From Chrysochromulina tobinii (lineage: Eukaryota; Haptophyta; Prymnesiales; Chrysochromulinaceae), in NCBI GenBank assembly GCA_001275005.1, contig JWZX01003160.1, positions 1 through 35,086 of the forward strand: a stretch of DNA of 35,086 nt. Direction: 5' to 3'. Below are positions 8,306-33,108 of this stretch, piece after piece. The notes under the pieces were generated by a model. That model did not search any database, was not told where the DNA came from, and saw nothing but the letters and a program-made list of their open reading frames with translations. Numbering within the stretch: position 1 is the first letter of the stretch; each line of letters opens with the position of its first letter. A program made the translations under genes and the position numbers.

Positions 8306-11300
8306 ATGTCGCGCGGCATCCTGTCCAAGGCGGAGAAGGAGAAGCTCGCGGATTCGCGCAAGCAGGTGGCCAAAGTGCTCGAGCGCGATGCCAACCTCTC
8401 CGATCGGGACCTCTACGATCGGCTTCTCAAGCAGGCACGCATGCCGGAGCAGGACATGTACGAGGAAAAGCTCGCGGACAACGCACTCATCCACCAGCGG
8501 CCGGCTTTCAGCGAGGTGCCGGGCGGCTACACGCCGATGCCGGCCGCGCTCCAGCAGGCGGCCCAGGGTGAGTACTACCACAGCTTCCAGGGCCTCTTCC
8601 CGCAGATCCACCGCGCTTGGATGACCATTGACCACGTGCTCTACCTGTGGGACTACAACGACCCACGGGGCTCGTTCTACCTGTATGATGGGCTCGACCA
8701 GACGATCATCCACGCGTCCCTCGTCCGCCCGCGCCAGGGCGTTTTCGAACCCACGCCGGACTGGCTCTTGCTGCTCTCCACGCCGGTTGAGGTCATCCTC
8801 CTCGGGCTGTACACGACCGCCACCCACGACATCAACGTTTTCGAGACGGGCTACTCGGTGGCCACCGACGGCGCGAACCTGCTCCAGATCGTGGGGACGC
8901 CGAGCGGTCGCATCTTCATGGCCGGCGCCGACGGCTTTGTGTACGAGCTCACTTACGGCGATAGCGAGGGCTGGTTCTACACCAACAAGAAGTGCACCAA
9001 GCGCAACCGCTCACGCAAGCGAGACGTGGCGCTGCAATACCTCAGTTCAGTGGTGTACGACTCCTCGGACCCCATCCTCGATCTGGTGTACGATGCTGAG
9101 CGCTCGCTGCTGTACACGCTCTCGCGTGCGTCGACGCTGCAGCTCTTCGACCTTGGCTGGGACGGCGAGGGCCCTGTGCGGTTCGTCGCGCGTCTCGAGG
9201 CCCAGAAGCTCGCTGCCGACCTCCGATCCCAGAGCAAAGTGCGCGACGCGCCCATCTACGCGAAGGTGGATAAGGACATCAAGGAGGGCGAGCAGAACAA
9301 AGAAGGGCAGACCGCCTTCGTGGCGCTCGCGCCGCTCCCGTCGGCGCTCTCCAAGCAACTTCAGCTCGTGATCACGACCGTCTCCGGGGTAAGAGTCTAC
9401 CTGGAAGTCGTCGACGCGAATGGGAAAGGCCTGGAGAGCGCGCCCGACAGCCCGCGCGCCGCGAGAGTGAAAGTGCTCTACGCGCTGCCGCCGCCTCGGC
9501 CTCTCAAGTGCCAGCGCGGCACGGTGCCCAACGCAGCGGACGTGAATGTCTTCGCGGACGAGCTTGCGCGCTCCGGTCTCGAGCCATCCCACAGAGAATG
9601 GGAGTTGCTCTGCCTCTCGGATCTGCCGCTGCTCCCCTCCGACCGGCCAGAGGGCAGAGATGACAAGTCGACCCTCAGCCGGCTGCGCGTCCCAGGAGTT
9701 GTCTTGGCCCTCGCCGAGGACGTCCACGGCGCCGTGACGAGCGCCGCGGGCAGCTACGAGCTCGTCAGTCAGCATCGGGTCGATCCGGCGCGCGCTCGTA
9801 CCTTCATCGTTCTCACGACGAGTGTAGCGGGTGTGAAGCGCATCGTCAAGCGACGACCAGTGGATGAGCTCCAATTGCTCCTCGGGGCGTCTAGTGCCTC
9901 TTGGGTCGACCAGCCATTGGACTTTTTTCGTCGGTACGGCCCTGACGAAGCATGCGCCGTGTGCCTGCGTGCATGCAAGTGCTCACCACGACGCCCCATG
10001 CACTTCCCCACAGATACGGCCCCGACGAAGCATGCGCCATGTGCCTGCTCAGTGCCATCAGCCAGCCTGCCCTCAGCCAGCCAGCCCTCCAGGCGCAGCT
10101 CGCGGAGTGGGCTCGCCGCTGGGGGGAAGGCGCATCATCGGCGATGGCCGCGGGCCAAGGTGGCGCACCGAACGTCGCGCAGACCGCAGCGGCGCACGGG
10201 CAGGCAGTGCCGCTCGCGGAGAAGCGGTACAGCGGGAGACACGGCGGGCTATGCCGGGTGCTCGCGAGGCTGCTTCAGCCCTATTGGGATCGGCCGTTGA
10301 TCCTCAAAGTGCCGGAGCCCTCGAACGCTACCGGTGAAGATTTGCGCCTGTGCGAGCCTCGCGAAAGATGGAACGAGCTCCAGGGCAAATTGCTCTGCCT
10401 CATCAACCATATCGAGACGCACGGAGAAGCTTGGGGACGCTTGGGTGCTGCCGGGTACGCGGGTACGAATCCGCGCGCGTCCCTTGGCGGCGGTGGCGCC
10501 GTCGGGATGCACCAGCTTGGGCAGGGGCTCTTGGCCGACCCGAATGTCCCGCAAGCGCTCAGACATGCATTTCCGCCAGCGCTCAGACTTGGCGCCGTCG
10601 TTTCTCAGGACGAGGCGGATTTGAAGAAGCAGGAGGCTGCCGCGATCGACGCCCTTTTCTACTTTGCGAAGCGTGCGGCGGAGGCGGCCACCTTCCTCGC
10701 GACGATCGCGGCCGATTCGCGCGCGCCCGGCGGCGGCGGTGGTGCCACCGTGCCCGAGCCGGCGCGTCTGCAACTGCTCGACAAACTCGCGAAGCCTCTC
10801 GACGCGCCGCAGCGTGAGGCACTGCTTAAGATGACCCTCTCTGATCTGCTCGTGCCGCTCCAACGGGATGCAAACGGCCGGCCGCAGCCGGACAAGTGGG
10901 ACGCGCGCGTGGAGACCGAGCTGCCCAAGAAGCTCTTCATGGAGCTCGGTAAGGTCGAGGGTGTCCCAGTGGCGTCCCAACTGCAGCGCCACTGCCACAC
11001 CTTCTTCTCGGACGCGCACAAGGAGGAGCAGACTGGTTTGGATGACTTGAAGAAAGCGGAGGAGAAGCCTGAACAGCGGACCGAGAACGTCAAGAAGGCG
11101 CTCGACGCCTTCGGCCGGGTGGCGGCGCACATCGACCTGCCGCAGGTCCTCGACGCGCTGCTCAAGTCCCGTGCCAAGTTCGCCACAGATGGGGCCAGGG
11201 CGGCCGCGGTACTCGAGCTGCTCAACCAAGGGATCGCATCACTACCCCTCGCCGCCGCCAGGTCGGACGATCCTACGGGCGACGCCACAAGCCTGCTAGT

Positions 11301-13080: not shown

Positions 13081-14338
13081 TGACACACGCTTGGGACACA
13101 CGCTTGTGACACACGGCCATTCTGGACGGCGCGCCGGAGGGGACGAGAGGGGCAGCAGGCATGTGCTCGCCACTATGCTCTCTCCCCACTGGACGGCGCG
13201 CCGGATGGGACGGCGCGCTAAAGCGGCCGGCGCGGCGCGAAAGTGCTGAATTCGGCTCTGTGCTGAATTTGGGACTGTGCTGAATTTGGAAATGTAAGTG
13301 CCGCAGAGGCGCATGCGGGAGACGAGGACGGTGGCGGCGGCGACGCTGATGCGGCCATAGTATTGAGGGTATTGGAGGTGGCGCGCCGTTGTGAGCGCGG
13401 AGCCCACGAGGGAGCTGGGGCACGTGCGATGACGACGCTACTCTCGAGAGCGGCTCAGCTCACAGCTGGACGCTGCGGGTCGGGTGGCGAGCGTGACTTT
13501 GTGGCAGAGCTACTTTGGAGGACGCCGCGGCGGCTCCTGTGCGGTCGAGCGCAGATCGGGACGGACACGATATCCCAGCGGCAGCGGCTGCGGGGCGGAG
13601 AACAGAATCCAGGTGTGTGCGTTCGGCCATTCTTGGTTCATGTCGTTGCGGTTCATCTTGTGTGTTTTGTGTGTCATTGCACATTGCGGTGCGCGAGCAA
13701 GCGCGCCGGTCCGTCGGTCCGGTTGTTCCGTTATCGGTGGTGTCGGTGCTTAGTCGGTGCCGCCACATACGTATGGTTTACCATTATGGTATTGAAAGGA
13801 AGGAAAGGAAAGTGGAAAGGCTGAGACACATCCGCGGTGCACGTTCTCAGATAAATTATCATTTGAGATTTCGTACCATGAATTTGAGGACACACACATC
13901 CACACAGACACACCGCATCACCGGGGCCACGGCCAGCACGGTCCACCGCAGATAGGTGTTCGCAGCGGCGCCACCTAAGTTTAGGGGCGAGTCGTGAGTC
14001 GACGTGTCCACCAGGATATAACTCGAGTAACGCGAGTATGATGTATGTTACTTTCCGGCGTTGTGTGAGATGTGAGCGGGTGGCTGGTGTGGCGCGTGGA
14101 AAATTTGCAAGGTCCTGTCCTCATGTGAATTGCGGAGGTTCTCGTTTTCCAGTGGAATTCGATGCCTTGATTCGATGAAGCGAGTTCCGTCATTGAGCGT
14201 TTGTGTTTCACAGCCAATGTTTATAATTCGACACCCAAGACACCGGACCTGCGTACCAGTACATACCGGTACGTGTGCGGTTACATCGTTTCACTATCGT
14301 TTCACAGCAGCAAGCCGGAGTGTGGTCTAGAAAAAAAG
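13081..14338. other. Intergenic region between NUP155 and the SDR gene
   Basis: About 1.26 kb with no recognisable gene. Open frames of 60-150 codons overlap in several frames and show no domain. The 5' end has short tandem units of GACACACGCTTG directly after the NUP155 stop (13082-13115), then a 17-nt direct repeat CTGGACGGCGCGCCGGA (13122-13138 and 13189-13205), then three copies of a 17-nt unit (13243-13293). From about 13780 it becomes more AT-rich than the rest of the window, as expected for a promoter or UTR. Confidence 0.5.
13243..13293. repeat. Three copies of a 17-nt GTGCTGAATT unit
   Basis: Tandem units start at 13243, 13260 and 13277, each beginning GTGCTGAATT followed by a slightly different 7-nt end. 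This is a short minisatellite in noncoding DNA. Confidence 0.75.
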
Positions 14339-18993: not shown

Positions 18994-19466
18994 GGCACTA
19001 TCGCCGCGACTGCGACAGTTGGAGGACAGCGTGTCAGCAACAGGGTCACGAAAATGATGCTGAGAACTTCAGGCCTTGCGCGCCTCTCTCTGCGTAGCGG
19101 CCCGCTTCGGTCGCCGACGATGCGAGATATCCGGATAACACTTCCGAGACTCATCTCCCCTACTTCCAACTTCCAACTTCTTCACAGGCTCATCTCCCCT
19201 ACTTCCAACTTCCAACTTCTTCACAGGCTGTTCACACACTATCATCAGCCCCCAGATCACGCAGGATCAGGTGTGGGGCGTTGGCCTCCATGTGTATAAC
19301 GTTTGGGGGCGTGTTGAGGAGGTAGTCGACGTCCTTCGATGCCGCGGCGACGCGTGCCGCGTGGTCTTTATTAGATTTATTTACAATTTAGGGGGGGCGG
19401 GCCAAGCCCAAGGCCGGGCGGGACCAGCGTGAAGTGTGTGACGATCACAAAGCTCAAAAGCACAAG
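18994..19466. other. Intergenic region upstream of COA5
   Basis: About 470 nt between the COA5 start and the 3' end of the ankyrin-TPR gene, both on the minus strand. It includes a perfect 39-bp tandem duplication (19150-19227) and an AT-rich patch near 19370-19390. No gene is visible. Confidence 0.5.
19150..19227. repeat. Perfect tandem duplication, 39-bp unit
   Basis: Units 19150-19188 and 19189-19227 are identical. Each runs CTCATCTCCCC...CTTCTTCACAGG and itself contains the doublet ACTTCCAACTTCCAACTT. On the plus strand each unit ends in a pyrimidine tract followed by CACAGG, like a splice acceptor, but no plus-strand gene is evident. Identity of the copies shows the duplication is recent. 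Confidence 0.9.
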
Positions 19467-24781: not shown

Positions 24782-25318
24782 GCTGGCATGGGTGTCGCAA
24801 CTTGTTCAAAGCGCCCGCGGTCCTGCTTGAGCGGGGCAGCTCGGGCATACGTGGCCTTTGTCCATAGACTGCGGGCGGCGCATTATCATGATCGTGGTAG
24901 AACCATGGCGCCCACCATGGCGCCGAGCTGCCGCCCGTACGCTCTCGGTACGTGAACGTGAGCACGAACGCGAGTCGCGGGACGTGCGTGGTGTATGTCT
25001 GGCGTGTGTGGCATAAGTGGAGGGAAGGGGATGCGTGTGGCACCGCCTGGGTGCGACGAGCAAACGAGCGACGAAGGGACGCTCAGTGTGACCGATGTAC
25101 GGCTACATGTACGGTTGCTGACAGTGGTTCTCGGTCACGATGGGGGGACTGAGATGAGGGACTTTTGACTATTTGATGGAGGCACGACCTTTTCTGAGTT
25201 AGTTGGTGACCGAGTGTGAAGACTTGTGGGTTGTGTATTCATATGAAGAGACGTGCTCACACCTCCCTGTGGTCGCAAGCTCGCACCTCTGAGCCGACCA
25301 CTCCGACGCGTCATCCCT
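24782..25318. other. Intergenic region between ankyrin and LRR genes
   Basis: About 540 nt between two plus-strand genes. ACCATGGCGCC occurs twice in close succession (about 24903-24926). No coding region is recognisable. Confidence 0.5.
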
Positions 25319-27808: not shown

Positions 27809-30800
27809 CTAGTCGCGCGCCTCTTTGCACACCGGGCCAAAGCCGCGGCCGCTCGCGTCAGTCACCTTGGTGAAGCCCATCGAGATGCATCCGCTCTCCT
27901 CCGCCGCGCGCGCGAGGCACGGGTCAGCCTCGGCAAGCGCCGGGTGGCCCGTCTTGAGGTGCAGCCAGCCGTTGGAGTCGGGCGACGAGCAGCACTTGCA
28001 CGTCATCTTATCGTGGAAGTTGGAGCGAGAGTCGAACTGCGGCTCAAAGAGGGAGCTGAGCTCACCCGCGGAGAAGCGGTTGGCGGCTCCCTCGCCGTCG
28101 ACAATCTCGCCCGCGAGACCATTCTTCGAGAACTGACGACCCAAGCACACCTCTTCGAGGCTGCCCACCTTCAAACAGGGTGGGTTGCAGAGGGAGGGGG
28201 GCGCCATGGTGAGCACTTGCATGCAAGGCAGAGTGGGTTGCAAAGGGAGAGGGGCGCCATGGTGAGCACTTGCATGCAAGTACATGCAAGGAGACGGTTA
28301 CGGCAGCATCGAAGAGGTTCAGGAGAGAGCGAACGTACAGCAAAGAGCCGGTACACGTAACACGGCTTCTGCTGCCCGCTGCGCCACACGCGCGCGAGCG
28401 CCTGGGCGTCGATGGCCGGATTCCAGTCCGGGTCGAAGAGGATGAGTCGGTTGGCGCCGATCAGGTTGATGCCACAGCCGCCGGCCTTCGAGGAGAGTAG
28501 GAAGGCGAAGATGGACGGATCGGTGTTGAACGCGTCGACCCGCTCCTGCCGCTTGTTGGCGGCGAGCGAGCCGTCGAGCCGCATGAAGCGCAGCCGCTCC
28601 TTGCTCAGGACTGCGTCGAAGAGGTCCAGGATCGAGGTCGAGTTGGAGATCAGCACGAAGCGGTCGTCCGTGGTGCGTTTCACCTCGCGCAGCAGAGCGC
28701 GCATCGCCCTCAGCTTGCCAGAGGCGGCAACCGCCGCGTCCACATCGATGGCACCTTGCCGCGCCTCGAGCGCCTCGAGCACGCGCTTGCCGCTTACGCC
28801 GCCGCCTACGCCTCCGCCCGCGCCACCAGTCACCGCCGCCGCTTCAGTCGCTCTTGCTTCGGCCGCGGCGAGGCTCTTGGCTGCGAGAGGGTCGTTGACA
28901 ATCTTCTTGAGCATCGCGACAGTGCGCAGCGCCGTCTTGTTCTGCTGCGCCTTCTCGCCGGTCTTGGCGGCACGTTGCCAGGCTGCGCGGCCGACGGTGA
29001 CCTCGTGCGTGTAGGCAGCCTGCTGCTCGCCCGTGAGGGAGCAGAAGACAAGTACGTCGAGCTTGGCGGGAAGGTACTTGGCGATCACCTCGTTCGAGCG
29101 ACGGAGCATGAGCTGGTTGACGATGGCAATGAAGGCGCTCGATGCGGCGCTCCCGCGCTCAATCTCGGCGTCGCTCGCCTCAAGGTCGCGCGCCTTCTCG
29201 ATCGCCTTGCCATATTTGGCCTGGAACTCCTTCTCCGAGCCGAGCCCGTCCGGGATGCAAAAGTGGAGCAGTGCAAAGAACTCCTCGAGACCATTCTGGA
29301 TGGGTGTACCGGTGACCATCAAGCGCATCTGTGTGGGCAGTCCGAACAACGCTTGAAAGAGGGCCGTCTTGAGATTCTTGAGTTTGTGCGCCTCGTCGCA
29401 CACGAGCAGACCAAGCGGGATCGTGCGCAGCGTCTCGACGTGCAGCCGCGCCGTGTCGTACGAGAGGATGAGCAAACGCGCCGTGCGCAACGCTCGGAAG
29501 CTCATGAGCTTCGCCTCGATGTCATCCTTCATGTCGCTCGTCAGAACTGTGAGGTTGAGCTTTCGGGGCAAGCCCTCAGTCCACTTGGCCACCTCGTCGC
29601 GCCAGTTGTGCACAAGGCTCGTCGGGCAGATGACCGCCGCCGTCGTGATCAGCCCCTTGCTTTTGCCCGGCTCCATGCACGAGTACAGCAGCGTGTGGAT
29701 CGTCGCGATCGTCTGAAGCGTCTTGCCGAGTCCCATATCATCGGCTAGGAGGCACCCCTTACCGATGGCCTTGCGCCCGAGGCACGCCTGCACGATGAAC
29801 TGACAGCCGGCGCTCTGATGCGGGCGCAGCTTGGCGGCGAGCAACGGGTCCATCATGAGCGCGCACTGGCCTTCCTGCCACGGCTCGCAGAGTACAAGCC
29901 GTACCCCCGCGGCTGCCGCTGCGCCATCTGCGCTACTGCCGCCGCCGCCGCTTCCCATTCCGCGCTTCTTCCGCAGAAGGCCGCCGCCGCCGCTACCGAA
30001 GCCGCTCGTGAGGCTCACCATCGTGCCCATCCACATGCTGCCTCCGCCTCCGCCTCCGCCTCTGCCGCGCTCACCCTCGTCGGTCGCCTCCTCGTCGTCG
30101 TCGTCGTCCGCGTCCTCGCCGTCGGCGCGCTCGCGCTTTACCTTTGAGCGCGGCGGGGGGGGTGGCATCGCCCGCGCGATTACCGTGCCCGCGACAGCTT
30201 TGGGCGCGCCGAACTTGCGCTTCTTGAAGGGCATCGCCGGCCTCGCAACCGGAGGCACGTCGCCCTCGGCAGGCAGGTCCTCATCGGCCGTCTCTTCCGC
30301 CCCGCTGACGAGCAACGTGCCTCCCTGCGCTGCCTCGCTGAGGAACGTGCTGACGAAACGAGCCTGGGAAGAAGACGGTGCCGCCGCGCTCATGCCAAGG
30401 CCGCCGTGGCCGCTCGTGAACATGAAGCCGTGAAGTGGCTTGCGGCTGCCGAACAGGCCGCCGATCGGGGTCGAGCGCATCTGCTCTGTTGCATGCGCCC
30501 CGATGAGATCGCAATCTCCATCAACACGTTCCTCGCCGTCGAGCGCCTCCACCTCCTCTTTAGCTTCCTTCGCAGCCGTCGCCGCTGCTGACGCCGCTGA
30601 GGTCTGCGCGGGCTTCCGCGCGAGCTGCTGCTCCACCTGCTGCTCGTGCTGCTCCTCCGCCGGTTCCTCCTCCTTGACAGTGGGCATCGGCAGCAACGTC
30701 GGGCGAGCCGCAGCCGCCGTCGGGCGCGAGCTTCCGTCCTTGCGTGGCGGTGCAAATGACTTGCGCTTGCGCGCGCCGGGCTGCTTGGTGGAGTCGGCTT

Positions 30801-31738: not shown

Positions 31739-33108
31739 TTACTCCCTCAAACTGAGGGGAAGAAGCGAGTCTAAAACAGTTGAGGGTAAGAGGCTCATCA
31801 ATCCTCCAACCACGTTGAGCCCAACAGATGCTACAGTTGAGGTTGAAGGTGAAGGTAAGAGACTCGTCAGCCCTCCAACCAAGTTGAGCCCGACAGATGC
31901 TACAGTTGAGGTTGAAGGTGAAGGTAAGAGACTCGTCAGCCCTCCAACCACGTTGAGCCCGACAGATGCTACAGTTGAGGTAGAGGGAATCGACTGCCAC
32001 AAGGTCGTCGCGTCTTGCGAGTTGTGCAATTCAAGCCACAAACACGGGAGGCGATCACGCATGGAGAGCATCACTCCCAATGCTGGTGCGATTCCGTGTC
32101 CGGAGCTGGGATCGCACTCGACATAGGGAATATGGATGTCCCCATCGCTGTCGCTGCGTGAACTGAGGGTCGTGCTCATGGACGCTGCAAAATCGCGAGC
32201 CTTTTCATACGACACCTCTCGCTCTTGTCGCCTGGGTTGGTTCGATGAGCAGACATCGGAGGCCAACGAGCCACTAGCGAGCGATATGTACTTGGATCAC
32301 GGTATTCCCAATAGGAAGGGTCAACCAATCGTTCGAAAGTTGTGGCCTGGTGAATATTGAAGCACACACAAACGCAATCGGCATCGCGGATGAGACGGTC
32401 ATATGCCTCACGTTCAGTCGCTGGCAAGTCCCAAATCAGCATCTTGTAGACCTTGCCAAGGTAGCGCGCAAAGCACACGCCACATTCGACATCCCCACGC
32501 CACATCGCGTCTCTCGGATAAAACTCACTTGGTCTGTGGCACGACAACTTGAGGAAGGTCGACCCGCAGAAGGAAGGGCCCAGCAGAACAACTTTGCAAA
32601 GGTGATCACAGAAGTTATCACAGTCTTGGTCAAAGGTACTACTGTCAAAGGGCACCGATATACGTTGAGCAAAGACAAAGTGCCGATATGCCGCACGCCA
32701 GCCGGAAGGCGGTGAGACCATGGGAACATGCGCCACGCCCCGTGTGAGTGAATCGCGCAAATAGAGAGAACGCCAGAGATTCTCGCGAGTAGCCACGCGC
32801 GACCACGTCATGCACGTTGCCGCCGCACACAAAACCTCAGGCAAGTGCAGCGCCGACATGCATAACTGGAGCAAGTCCTCATCGAAGAGTACGCGCTTCG
32901 CTATCGTCGTACTGTCCAATTGCGACTCAGCGGTGAGCCTTCCGGGTGTCTGGGCCTCCCCTTTGCAGTCCACCTCCGCCGATGCCCCCACCGCCGATGC
33001 CCCCATAGCTTGCCGTCCTCGCGAGTCAGGATGCAGAGGCCACTCGGTGCCGTCGGGCAGCGAGATGAAGACTAAATTCTCTGGCGTGGAGGGCGAACGC
33101 GAGTCCAT
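31739..33108 (-). CDS. F-box protein fused to a degenerate Ras/Rab-like GTPase domain
   Basis: From ATG 33108 (MDSRSPSTPENLVFISLPDG). An F-box lies at about residues 72-118 (LFDEDLLQLCMSALHLPEVL, TWSRVATRENLWRSLYLRD), expected to bind SKP1 in an SCF ubiquitin ligase. It is followed by a Rab/Ras-like fold: CKVVLLGPSFCGST in place of the P-loop GxxxxGK[ST], so the key Lys is missing; MLIWDLPATER in place of WDTAGQER; ADCVCVCFNIHQATTFERL; SNQPRRQ where NKxD is expected; and EREVSYEKARDFAASM. Most nucleotide-contact residues are lost, so this should be a pseudoGTPase. The frame changes once near 32264-32271 (YRSLVA, then SDVCSSNQ), consistent with a one-base deletion; a short intron that skips the NKxD region is less likely. 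The C-terminus is three 23-residue repeats (STSTVASVGLNVVGGLTSLL). Domain calls are good; the frame repair is inferred. Confidence 0.72.
31782..31988 (-). repeat. Three 69-nt coding repeats, open on both strands
   Basis: Units 31782-31850, 31851-31919 and 31920-31988 are nearly identical. On the minus strand each encodes a 23-residue Ser/Thr then hydrophobic unit at the C-terminus of the F-box protein. On the plus strand the same DNA is also open (LSPTDATVEVEGEGKRLVSP). The period is a multiple of three, as expected for repeats kept in a coding frame. Confidence 0.88.

Follow-up and report, generated by a model that had tools for sequence, protein, structure and literature searches.

A dispersed family of very small, introner-like insertions with long flanking duplications in the haptophyte Chrysochromulina tobinii

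Introduction

The bulk origin of introns has long been in question, and introner families tend to be met as finished introns. According to the accessible part of the account by Gozashti et al. (2022; PMC9860276), introners occur in Micromonas, Aureococcus, dinoflagellates and Chrysochromulina MAGs, with TSDs of 3–9 bp in earlier families and 4 bp in Chrysochromulina; the search required similarity near both splice sites, and family median lengths were 30–654 nt. The introner elements of Amoebophrya, as far as the available text describes them, carry inverted repeats of 8–20 nt and direct repeats of 3–5 nt and have mostly non-canonical splice sites (PMC7789003). Direct repeats of 4–30 bp (mean 11.4) at or near intron borders are given in the available part of another survey (PMC11782384).

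The present study concerns the window, a stretch of 35,086 nt (contig JWZX01003160.1, here C2001) of the C. tobinii assembly GCA_001275005.1 (53.15 Mb, 2253 contigs), in which a first-pass annotation had proposed an introner family from a repeat shared by introns of RAD54 and NUP155. Like the Amoebophrya elements in the excerpted description (PMC7789003), the copies found here form a repeated set of strain-specific introns whose exon borders carry direct repeats; unlike them, they have direct repeats that are long and splice sites of the GT-AG kind, and the three element ends compared showed no inverted repeat. The duplicated exon that gives splice sites, and the repeats that flank a filler, recall intron gain by tandem duplication or double-strand-break repair as outlined in the part of PMC3443670 available to us, except that the filler is one short sequence genome-wide. 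In contrast to the unrelated introns covered by the accessible part of PMC11782384, a single family with near-identical duplications and a shared insert is concerned.

Materials and methods

The survey covered 168 distinct clusters of the core sequence (125 single, 43 tandem), which lie in the window or in one of 120 loci of its own genome. Loci L001–L030 were the best matches to the RAD54 double unit, which over-represents tandem copies, and L031–L121 were mostly exact-core matches in contig order. Clusters close to the end of a stretch, repeated sequences and L061 were excluded before flanking repeats were counted. L061, an IMG/VR match, had been considered as evidence of a virus carrier and was rejected: its core (L061:4495–4512) lies within 60 bases of the end of a contig of 4554 bases and is joined to a 3' splice-site tail, the ORFs look phage-like by eye, and the contig is probably chimeric.

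A null drawn from random genomic positions was discarded because common tandem repeats inflated it (34 of 400 positions scored at least 13), and was replaced by left and right flanks paired across different loci (shuffled). An intron-length filter was also rejected, since the correlation behind it, between the lengths of duplication and insert (r = −0.605), arose from the arbitrary boundary between the two; left and right part lengths gave r = −0.01. The coding strand was called by a codon-usage classifier, which was correct for 42 of 43 and 61 of 66 held-out exon pieces.

Results

The core sequence in the window and in the genome

The 18-mer GCATGCAAGTGCTCACCA is present in the window at 9971–9988 (plus strand), 28207–28224 and 28260–28277 (both minus) and, with three mismatches, at 13155–13172 (plus), where chance would give 0.03 matches at up to three mismatches. 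The genome holds 757 exact copies (374 + 383) against none of the reversed control, and 2573 copies (1248 + 1325) with up to three mismatches against 41 (17 + 24). The sole sequence common to family members is a core of about 24 nt, GCATGCAAGTGCTCACCACGGCGC, which contains a branch-site-like TGCTCAC and is free of stops in all three sense and two of three antisense frames (5/6 open). It is accompanied either by a Y-tract and CAG (type A) or by a donor of its own (type B). The features of the window are as follows, the caret marking a splice junction and D a direct repeat of local sequence.

9934..10013, plus strand: NUP155 intron, type A, 80 nt (mod 3 = 2), CGTCG^GTACGG...CCCCACAG^ATACGG; from sequence, joined-exon alignment and the relative P0001
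9934..9968, plus strand: left (intronic) copy of the 35-nt duplication D, providing the 5' splice site GTACGG; 32/35 identical to the right copy
10014..10048, plus strand: right (exonic) copy of the NUP155 D, from sequence comparison
9969..10013, plus strand: NUP155 inserted element, 45 nt, consisting of core, Y-rich tail and CCCCACAG 3' splice site
9971..9994, plus strand: NUP155 24-nt core GCATGCAAGTGCTCACCACGACGC with branch-site-like TGCTCAC; canonical U2 in the genome
13122..13212, plus strand: degenerate copy 3' of NUP155, with 24-nt direct repeats (13122–13145, 13189–13212) around the core 13155–13172
28169..28338, minus strand: RAD54 intron, 170 nt (mod 3 = 2), GCT^GTACGTTCG...TTTGAAG^GTGGGC; from sequence, joined-exon alignment and the relatives P0018–P0020
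28176..28280, minus strand: two tandem 53-nt units of the RAD54 intron, one core each (28207–28224, 28260–28277)
28150..28165, unstranded: inverted-repeat arm 1 at the start of RAD54 exon 2, 15/16 match to arm 2
28302..28317, unstranded: inverted-repeat arm 2 in the 5' part of the RAD54 intron, 15/16 match to arm 1

The joined exons of NUP155 align to Nup155 (7eye; E 6e-50), the intron site being crossed only by a weak second stretch of the match (i-Evalue 0.00094), and those of RAD54 align to RAD54 (1z3i; E 2e-93) across the intron site; the closest named RAD54 sequences are those of Prymnesium parvum (42%) and Haptolina ericina (45%). These matches show that both hosts are genuine genes. The first-pass annotation was right on the extent of the RAD54 intron (28338–28169, minus strand, GT...AG), on the sense orientation of the cores in both genes and on the identity of NUP155 with each RAD54 unit at 25 of 27 positions, and it erred on the length of that unit, which is 53 nt (28176–28280) and not 47 nt. 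The assembly search that it had suggested yielded the 757 exact and 2573 near copies given above, which confirms its observation of a dispersed family, one larger than it had envisaged, with thousands of copies.

At the NUP155 site, the relatives P0002 (98%) and P0003 (96%) read into the same intron, i.e., the site is filled, and P0001 (81%, 1590 aa) is contiguous, at the protein level, where this may reflect a spliced prediction. As read by eye, the translation of the RAD54 relative P0017 contains two units and that of P0018 (98%) one unit; P0019 (65%) and P0020 (60%) are contiguous at this site, with the same protein-level reservation about spliced predictions. No direct D was seen by eye around the RAD54 intron. 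Judged from sequence, the inverted repeat here is possibly an inverted duplication. The degenerate copy, with a core at 13155, lies downstream of the NUP155 ORF stop (13080); this core has three mismatches and its 24-nt flanking repeats have one, and no GT-AG register was found in 13122–13212.

Other duplications were noted in passing. In P0001, stretches of 27 and 23 residues are each duplicated in tandem and in frame, and neither duplication holds a core, which suggests that exon duplication is frequent in this lineage. The window contains a 69-nt tandem repeat (31781–31981, 2.9 copies) outside the core family, whose unit bears a donor-like GAAGGTAAGAG, a 39-nt tandem repeat (19150–19229) whose unit ends in an acceptor-like TTCACAGG, and two tandem copies of ACCATGGCGCC (24902–24924), which resemble the middle of the RAD54 unit and may be a core remnant. 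Near the cores of L005, L011, L021, L058 and other loci, apparently in other introns, there are arrays of CTGATTGC / CTGATGACC, which resemble the 5' arm of type B and are perhaps a second family.

Flanking duplications and element ends

Direct repeats D with a score of at least 15 flank 95 of the 125 single copies, against 7 of 489 shuffled pairings; the remaining 30 copies score below 15. By a rough rule, 68 of the 95 are of type A, in which D is exon sequence of 17–47 nt (median 29.5). GT opens the left copy of D in 58 of these 68, and CCCCACAG is the usual end of the insert; the intron therefore consists of D plus insert. The start of D approximates [A/C]G^GT[G/A]CG, and its other end has no clear motif. 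Note that the automatic typing admitted misfits, namely L041 (type B), L050 (no CAG^GT) and L011-945 (which starts with TT), and that several of the 26 copies typed as other (of 95) are type A by eye; the register test described below was used for splicing instead. The type A intron lengths fall into 29, 9 and 30 with remainders 0, 1 and 2 modulo 3, a deficit of 3n + 1.

In type B, the donor GTACGTTGATTGCCACTGATGACC belongs to the insert and stands at its start, the insert ends close to CACCACAGCGC, and the AG comes from the right-hand D copy. The type B query gave at least 51 matches (40 of 251 candidates scored), and 24 of the 51 matches listed end at query position 54 or 55, which is 9–10 nt past the branch-like A. 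Among the 32 loci of the type B set (20 from the 51 matches and 12 earlier ones), 29 matched and L047, L101 and L128 did not; a flanking repeat scoring at least 9 was found in 22 of the 29, against 8 of 812 shuffled pairings, with D of 9–32 nt. A subset of 16 introns, hand-picked from the 29, was set aside. At L103, AG^GT within D supplies both splice sites.

Ordinary tandem duplication of exon sequence (the AGGT model), or minisatellite slippage with a convergent branch-site motif, could be considered as a source of such structures, because tandem duplication is frequent here, as the window repeats and P0001 illustrate, and because L103 uses an AG and a GT inside D. The same 18–24-mer, however, lies between the duplicates at very many places, and the model creates no foreign insert; for the family as a whole it is refuted by the insert shared between D copies, and we consider it very improbable. 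A literature search on AGGT tandem duplication returned nothing.

Transposases usually produce a duplication of fixed length. The D copies extend over 9–47 nt overall and are variable, and neither type A (68 rows) nor type B (22 of 29) has a fixed short TSD of 3–9 bp. No terminal inverted repeat was found in the core, type B and NUP155 elements (4/10, 5/10 and 5/10 of the first ten bases). The 3' ends of the elements lie at AG in type A (by rule) and near GGCGC/AGCGC in type B and core-only copies, and both ends vary. A recognisable 3' tail is present in 104 of the 125 single copies, its variants being CGGCGC (66), CGACGC (16), CAGCGC (8) and TGGCGC (7). A non-autonomous DNA transposon, i.e., a MITE-like introner moved with a long stagger by a transposase, would be in line with these tail variants and with the recurrent 3' limit of type B (24 of the 51 matches listed), and the available part of PMC9860276 regards DNA transposition as compatible with most introner families. 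Against it stand the lack of terminal inverted repeats in three examples, the unfixed length of D and the varying element ends, and this origin appears unlikely.

Splice register, orientation and putative branch site

Removal of a GT-AG intron restores the target exactly in 63 of the 95 D-flanked copies, against 4–15 of 95 at seven control offsets, and the antisense CT-AC register shows no excess (13 of 95 against 9–20 at control offsets). A GT-AG register is missing from the other 32 copies, among them 12 (raw count) with a candidate GC-AG register. From this geometry, family members would be spliced as introns, and in the 63 copies a splice site would be co-opted from D with the mRNA length unchanged.

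The core is sense to the coding strand in 136 of 166 clusters and in 103 of 117 strong calls of the classifier (two window clusters left out), and 30 of the 166 are called antisense. TGCTCAC matches TACTAAC, the branch-site consensus, at 5 of 7 positions, the U2 RNA in the genome is canonical (GTGTAGTATC present), and the distance from the putative branch A of type A to the last base of the AG is 14–38 nt (median 27.5). Similarity near both splice sites, the search condition in the accessible text of PMC9860276, is not present, the donor side being D in type A and the acceptor side D in type B.

Copies in open reading frames and differences between relatives

An ORF of 1044 aa at C343:1548–4679 (minus strand; L104/L122/L123), designated G000, is not interrupted by the nine core copies that it contains, of which eight run antisense to it and one sense. 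It carries a 'TIVVVIDGMNVGRN' stretch, which we take to resemble an NYN/ZC3H12A-like RNase; its relative P0139 matched no Pfam family. Three relatives, P0137, P0138 and P0139, are 98, 94 and 87% identical to it in alignment A1, and their lengths differ. G000 reads ELDEAAELRRGEHLHARQAEEAAELRRQ where P0137 reads ELDEAAVLRRQ; the 17-aa insert of G000 is present in P0138, and P0139 has another insert there. RRQQHASAHHGADERRQHA of G000 has similar counterparts in P0137 and P0139, and P0138 reads MHDERRQNA. The number of RRGEHL copies before ISDEE/ISDEV is three in G000, one in P0137 and none in P0138 and P0139. A double insert around HGPSTLPSA (AVVSTCM twice) is found in G000 and in none of the three relatives, and P0139 has a private sense-oriented core copy, GMQVLTTAPRLGFGRGAVG.

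The double insert looks like a gain in G000. At the same time, the 17-aa insert is missing in P0137 yet present in the more distant P0138, and the insert in RRQQHASAHHGADERRQHA is missing in P0138 yet present in P0139; these two differences could be precise losses between repeats. We infer that most differences between the relatives are gains, with a polarity that is only partial. Nine other clusters, hand-picked among those without clear splice signals, lie in ORFs of 399–869 aa, coding being judged by openness alone; in six of them the longest ORF has the same orientation as the core, and in three the opposite one. Since in-frame exonic copies exist in both orientations, the unit shared by all copies is the core, of which introns are one product and in-frame exonic copies the other.

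These data also qualify the picture drawn by the first-pass annotation. It named the kind of element correctly and missed its main feature, the flanking direct repeats. It looked to polymorphism between strains, and differences between relatives are seen at the NUP155 and RAD54 sites (two introns, at the protein level) and in the inserts of the C343 ORF. Its all-sense orientation holds for most clusters (136 of 166) and fails for the core-only copies, whose presence in ORFs in either direction it had not foreseen. Nor are the introns near-identical from end to end, as only the core of about 24 nt is common, and in type A the 5' half of each intron repeats the exon downstream of it and so differs from locus to locus.

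If the core were instead a conserved functional motif of old, immobile introns (a branch site or splicing enhancer), the 5/7 match of TGCTCAC to TACTAAC and the canonical U2 would be explained; the flanking duplications, however, are little diverged (type A D copies differ at 62 of 1406 aligned bases, from 52 ungapped of 68 rows), and antisense copies stand in ORFs. The presence/absence differences between relatives of the C343 ORF refute an immobile motif, and this explanation is scarcely tenable.

Possible traces of copying from neighbouring elements

An identical tract of 44 nt, which includes 18 nt to the left and 2 nt to the right of the core, is found at C343:2842 and again 111 bp away at C343:2953. 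The core copy at 2860, which P0137 lacks and P0138 has, is flanked by 15-nt D copies (at 2830 and 2881) that join the tract at GCC and CGCAG, both of which are common to target and donor (microhomology). Such junctions are what a nascent strand would leave after switching to a neighbouring copy and returning, and an exonic copy with its neighbour's 44 nt favours templated copying. Moreover, among the 104 single copies with a recognisable 3' tail, tails from one contig resemble each other more closely than tails from different contigs (0.463 against 0.377; 1 of 2000 permutations), and long shared flanks occur in four same-contig pairs, the C343 pair included, against 0.85 expected (31 of 2000). 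Part of this same-contig similarity could be gene conversion. Three points count against template switching or limit it: only one donor-recipient pair is clear, the junction microhomology of type A is inseparable from the AG^GT required by splicing, and template switching alone leaves the thousandfold use of one 24-mer unaccounted for.

The same copies bear on RNA-mediated insertion, in which fragments of spliced or trimmed intron RNA would be reverse-transcribed at staggered nicks (target-primed, LINE-like), with the 3' half of an intron as the source of type A and a lariat, cut back to shortly beyond the branch site, as that of type B. Such a process would account for a D of variable length, as target-primed reverse transcription gives, for the 24 of 51 listed type B matches that end 9–10 nt past the branch-like A, for the AG ends of type A inserts, though the typing rule required AG, and for the sense bias. 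Selection for splicing, however, would leave the sense bias and the AG ends equally well. Eight of the nine C343 core copies are antisense to the ORF, which is not expected of excised introns, even if an RNA copy could also insert in antisense, and the C343 copy that carries its neighbour's exonic flank is likewise unexpected. We regard this route as doubtful.

Discussion

The existence of the family is nearly certain, and its best explanation, which we consider probable, is an intron-generating, introner-like family of very small insertions with the structure D-E-D. There is strong support for this structure and for the differences between relatives; we infer the splicing and the copying mechanism. 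The core of about 24 nt, either by itself or joined to a donor arm (5') or an acceptor arm (3'), would be copied to a new site, and 9–47 nt of the target would end up on both sides of the element. Copies would arise at a break or a stalled fork by microhomology-mediated template switching or templated end joining, the strand returning some 10–50 nt behind its departure point; a jump to the other strand may have left the inverted copy of part of RAD54 exon 2, with which it is compatible. The duplication would complete the intron by providing the donor (type A), the acceptor (type B) or both (L103), and selection would retain those inserts that can be spliced out (sense) or that keep the frame and bring no stop. 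For templated copying as the mechanism, we see the chances as about even. The more specific proposal of a transposase-free introner family, in which a branch-site-like 24-mer open in five of six frames is copied by template switching, often from nearby copies, in a genome prone to such microhomology-mediated events, is put forward tentatively, as somewhat less than an even chance.

Compared with the introners in the accessible text of PMC9860276, the family shares the dispersed new introns and the differences between close relatives, and, if spliced as its geometry predicts, would share the donor or acceptor co-opted from a duplication and the mostly unchanged mRNA length; family 5 of Chrysochromulina sp. 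there has its own donor and a co-opted acceptor, as type B has here. It differs in the variable D of 9–47 nt, the common core of only about 24 nt, the unique half of the type A intron and the in-frame exonic copies in both orientations, of which the available part of that account makes no mention (PMC9860276). Within the partial coverage of the introner literature searched, long variable duplications with a core of about 24 nt and antisense exonic copies were not found, which does not prove their absence.

The small unit and the long, little-diverged D make single events readable, with target, sometimes donor, junctions and selective filter. Filled sites differ among relatives, and intron gain and loss could be tracked in natural populations of one alga. 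The data suggest that searches requiring end-to-end intron similarity can miss families whose introns are half made of duplicated exon, and introner counts so far may be too low. If the transposase-free proposal is true, a single process, in which the abundance of the core feeds further copying, would leave both introns and protein insertions as its survivors, and bulk intron gain would proceed without a dedicated mobile element.
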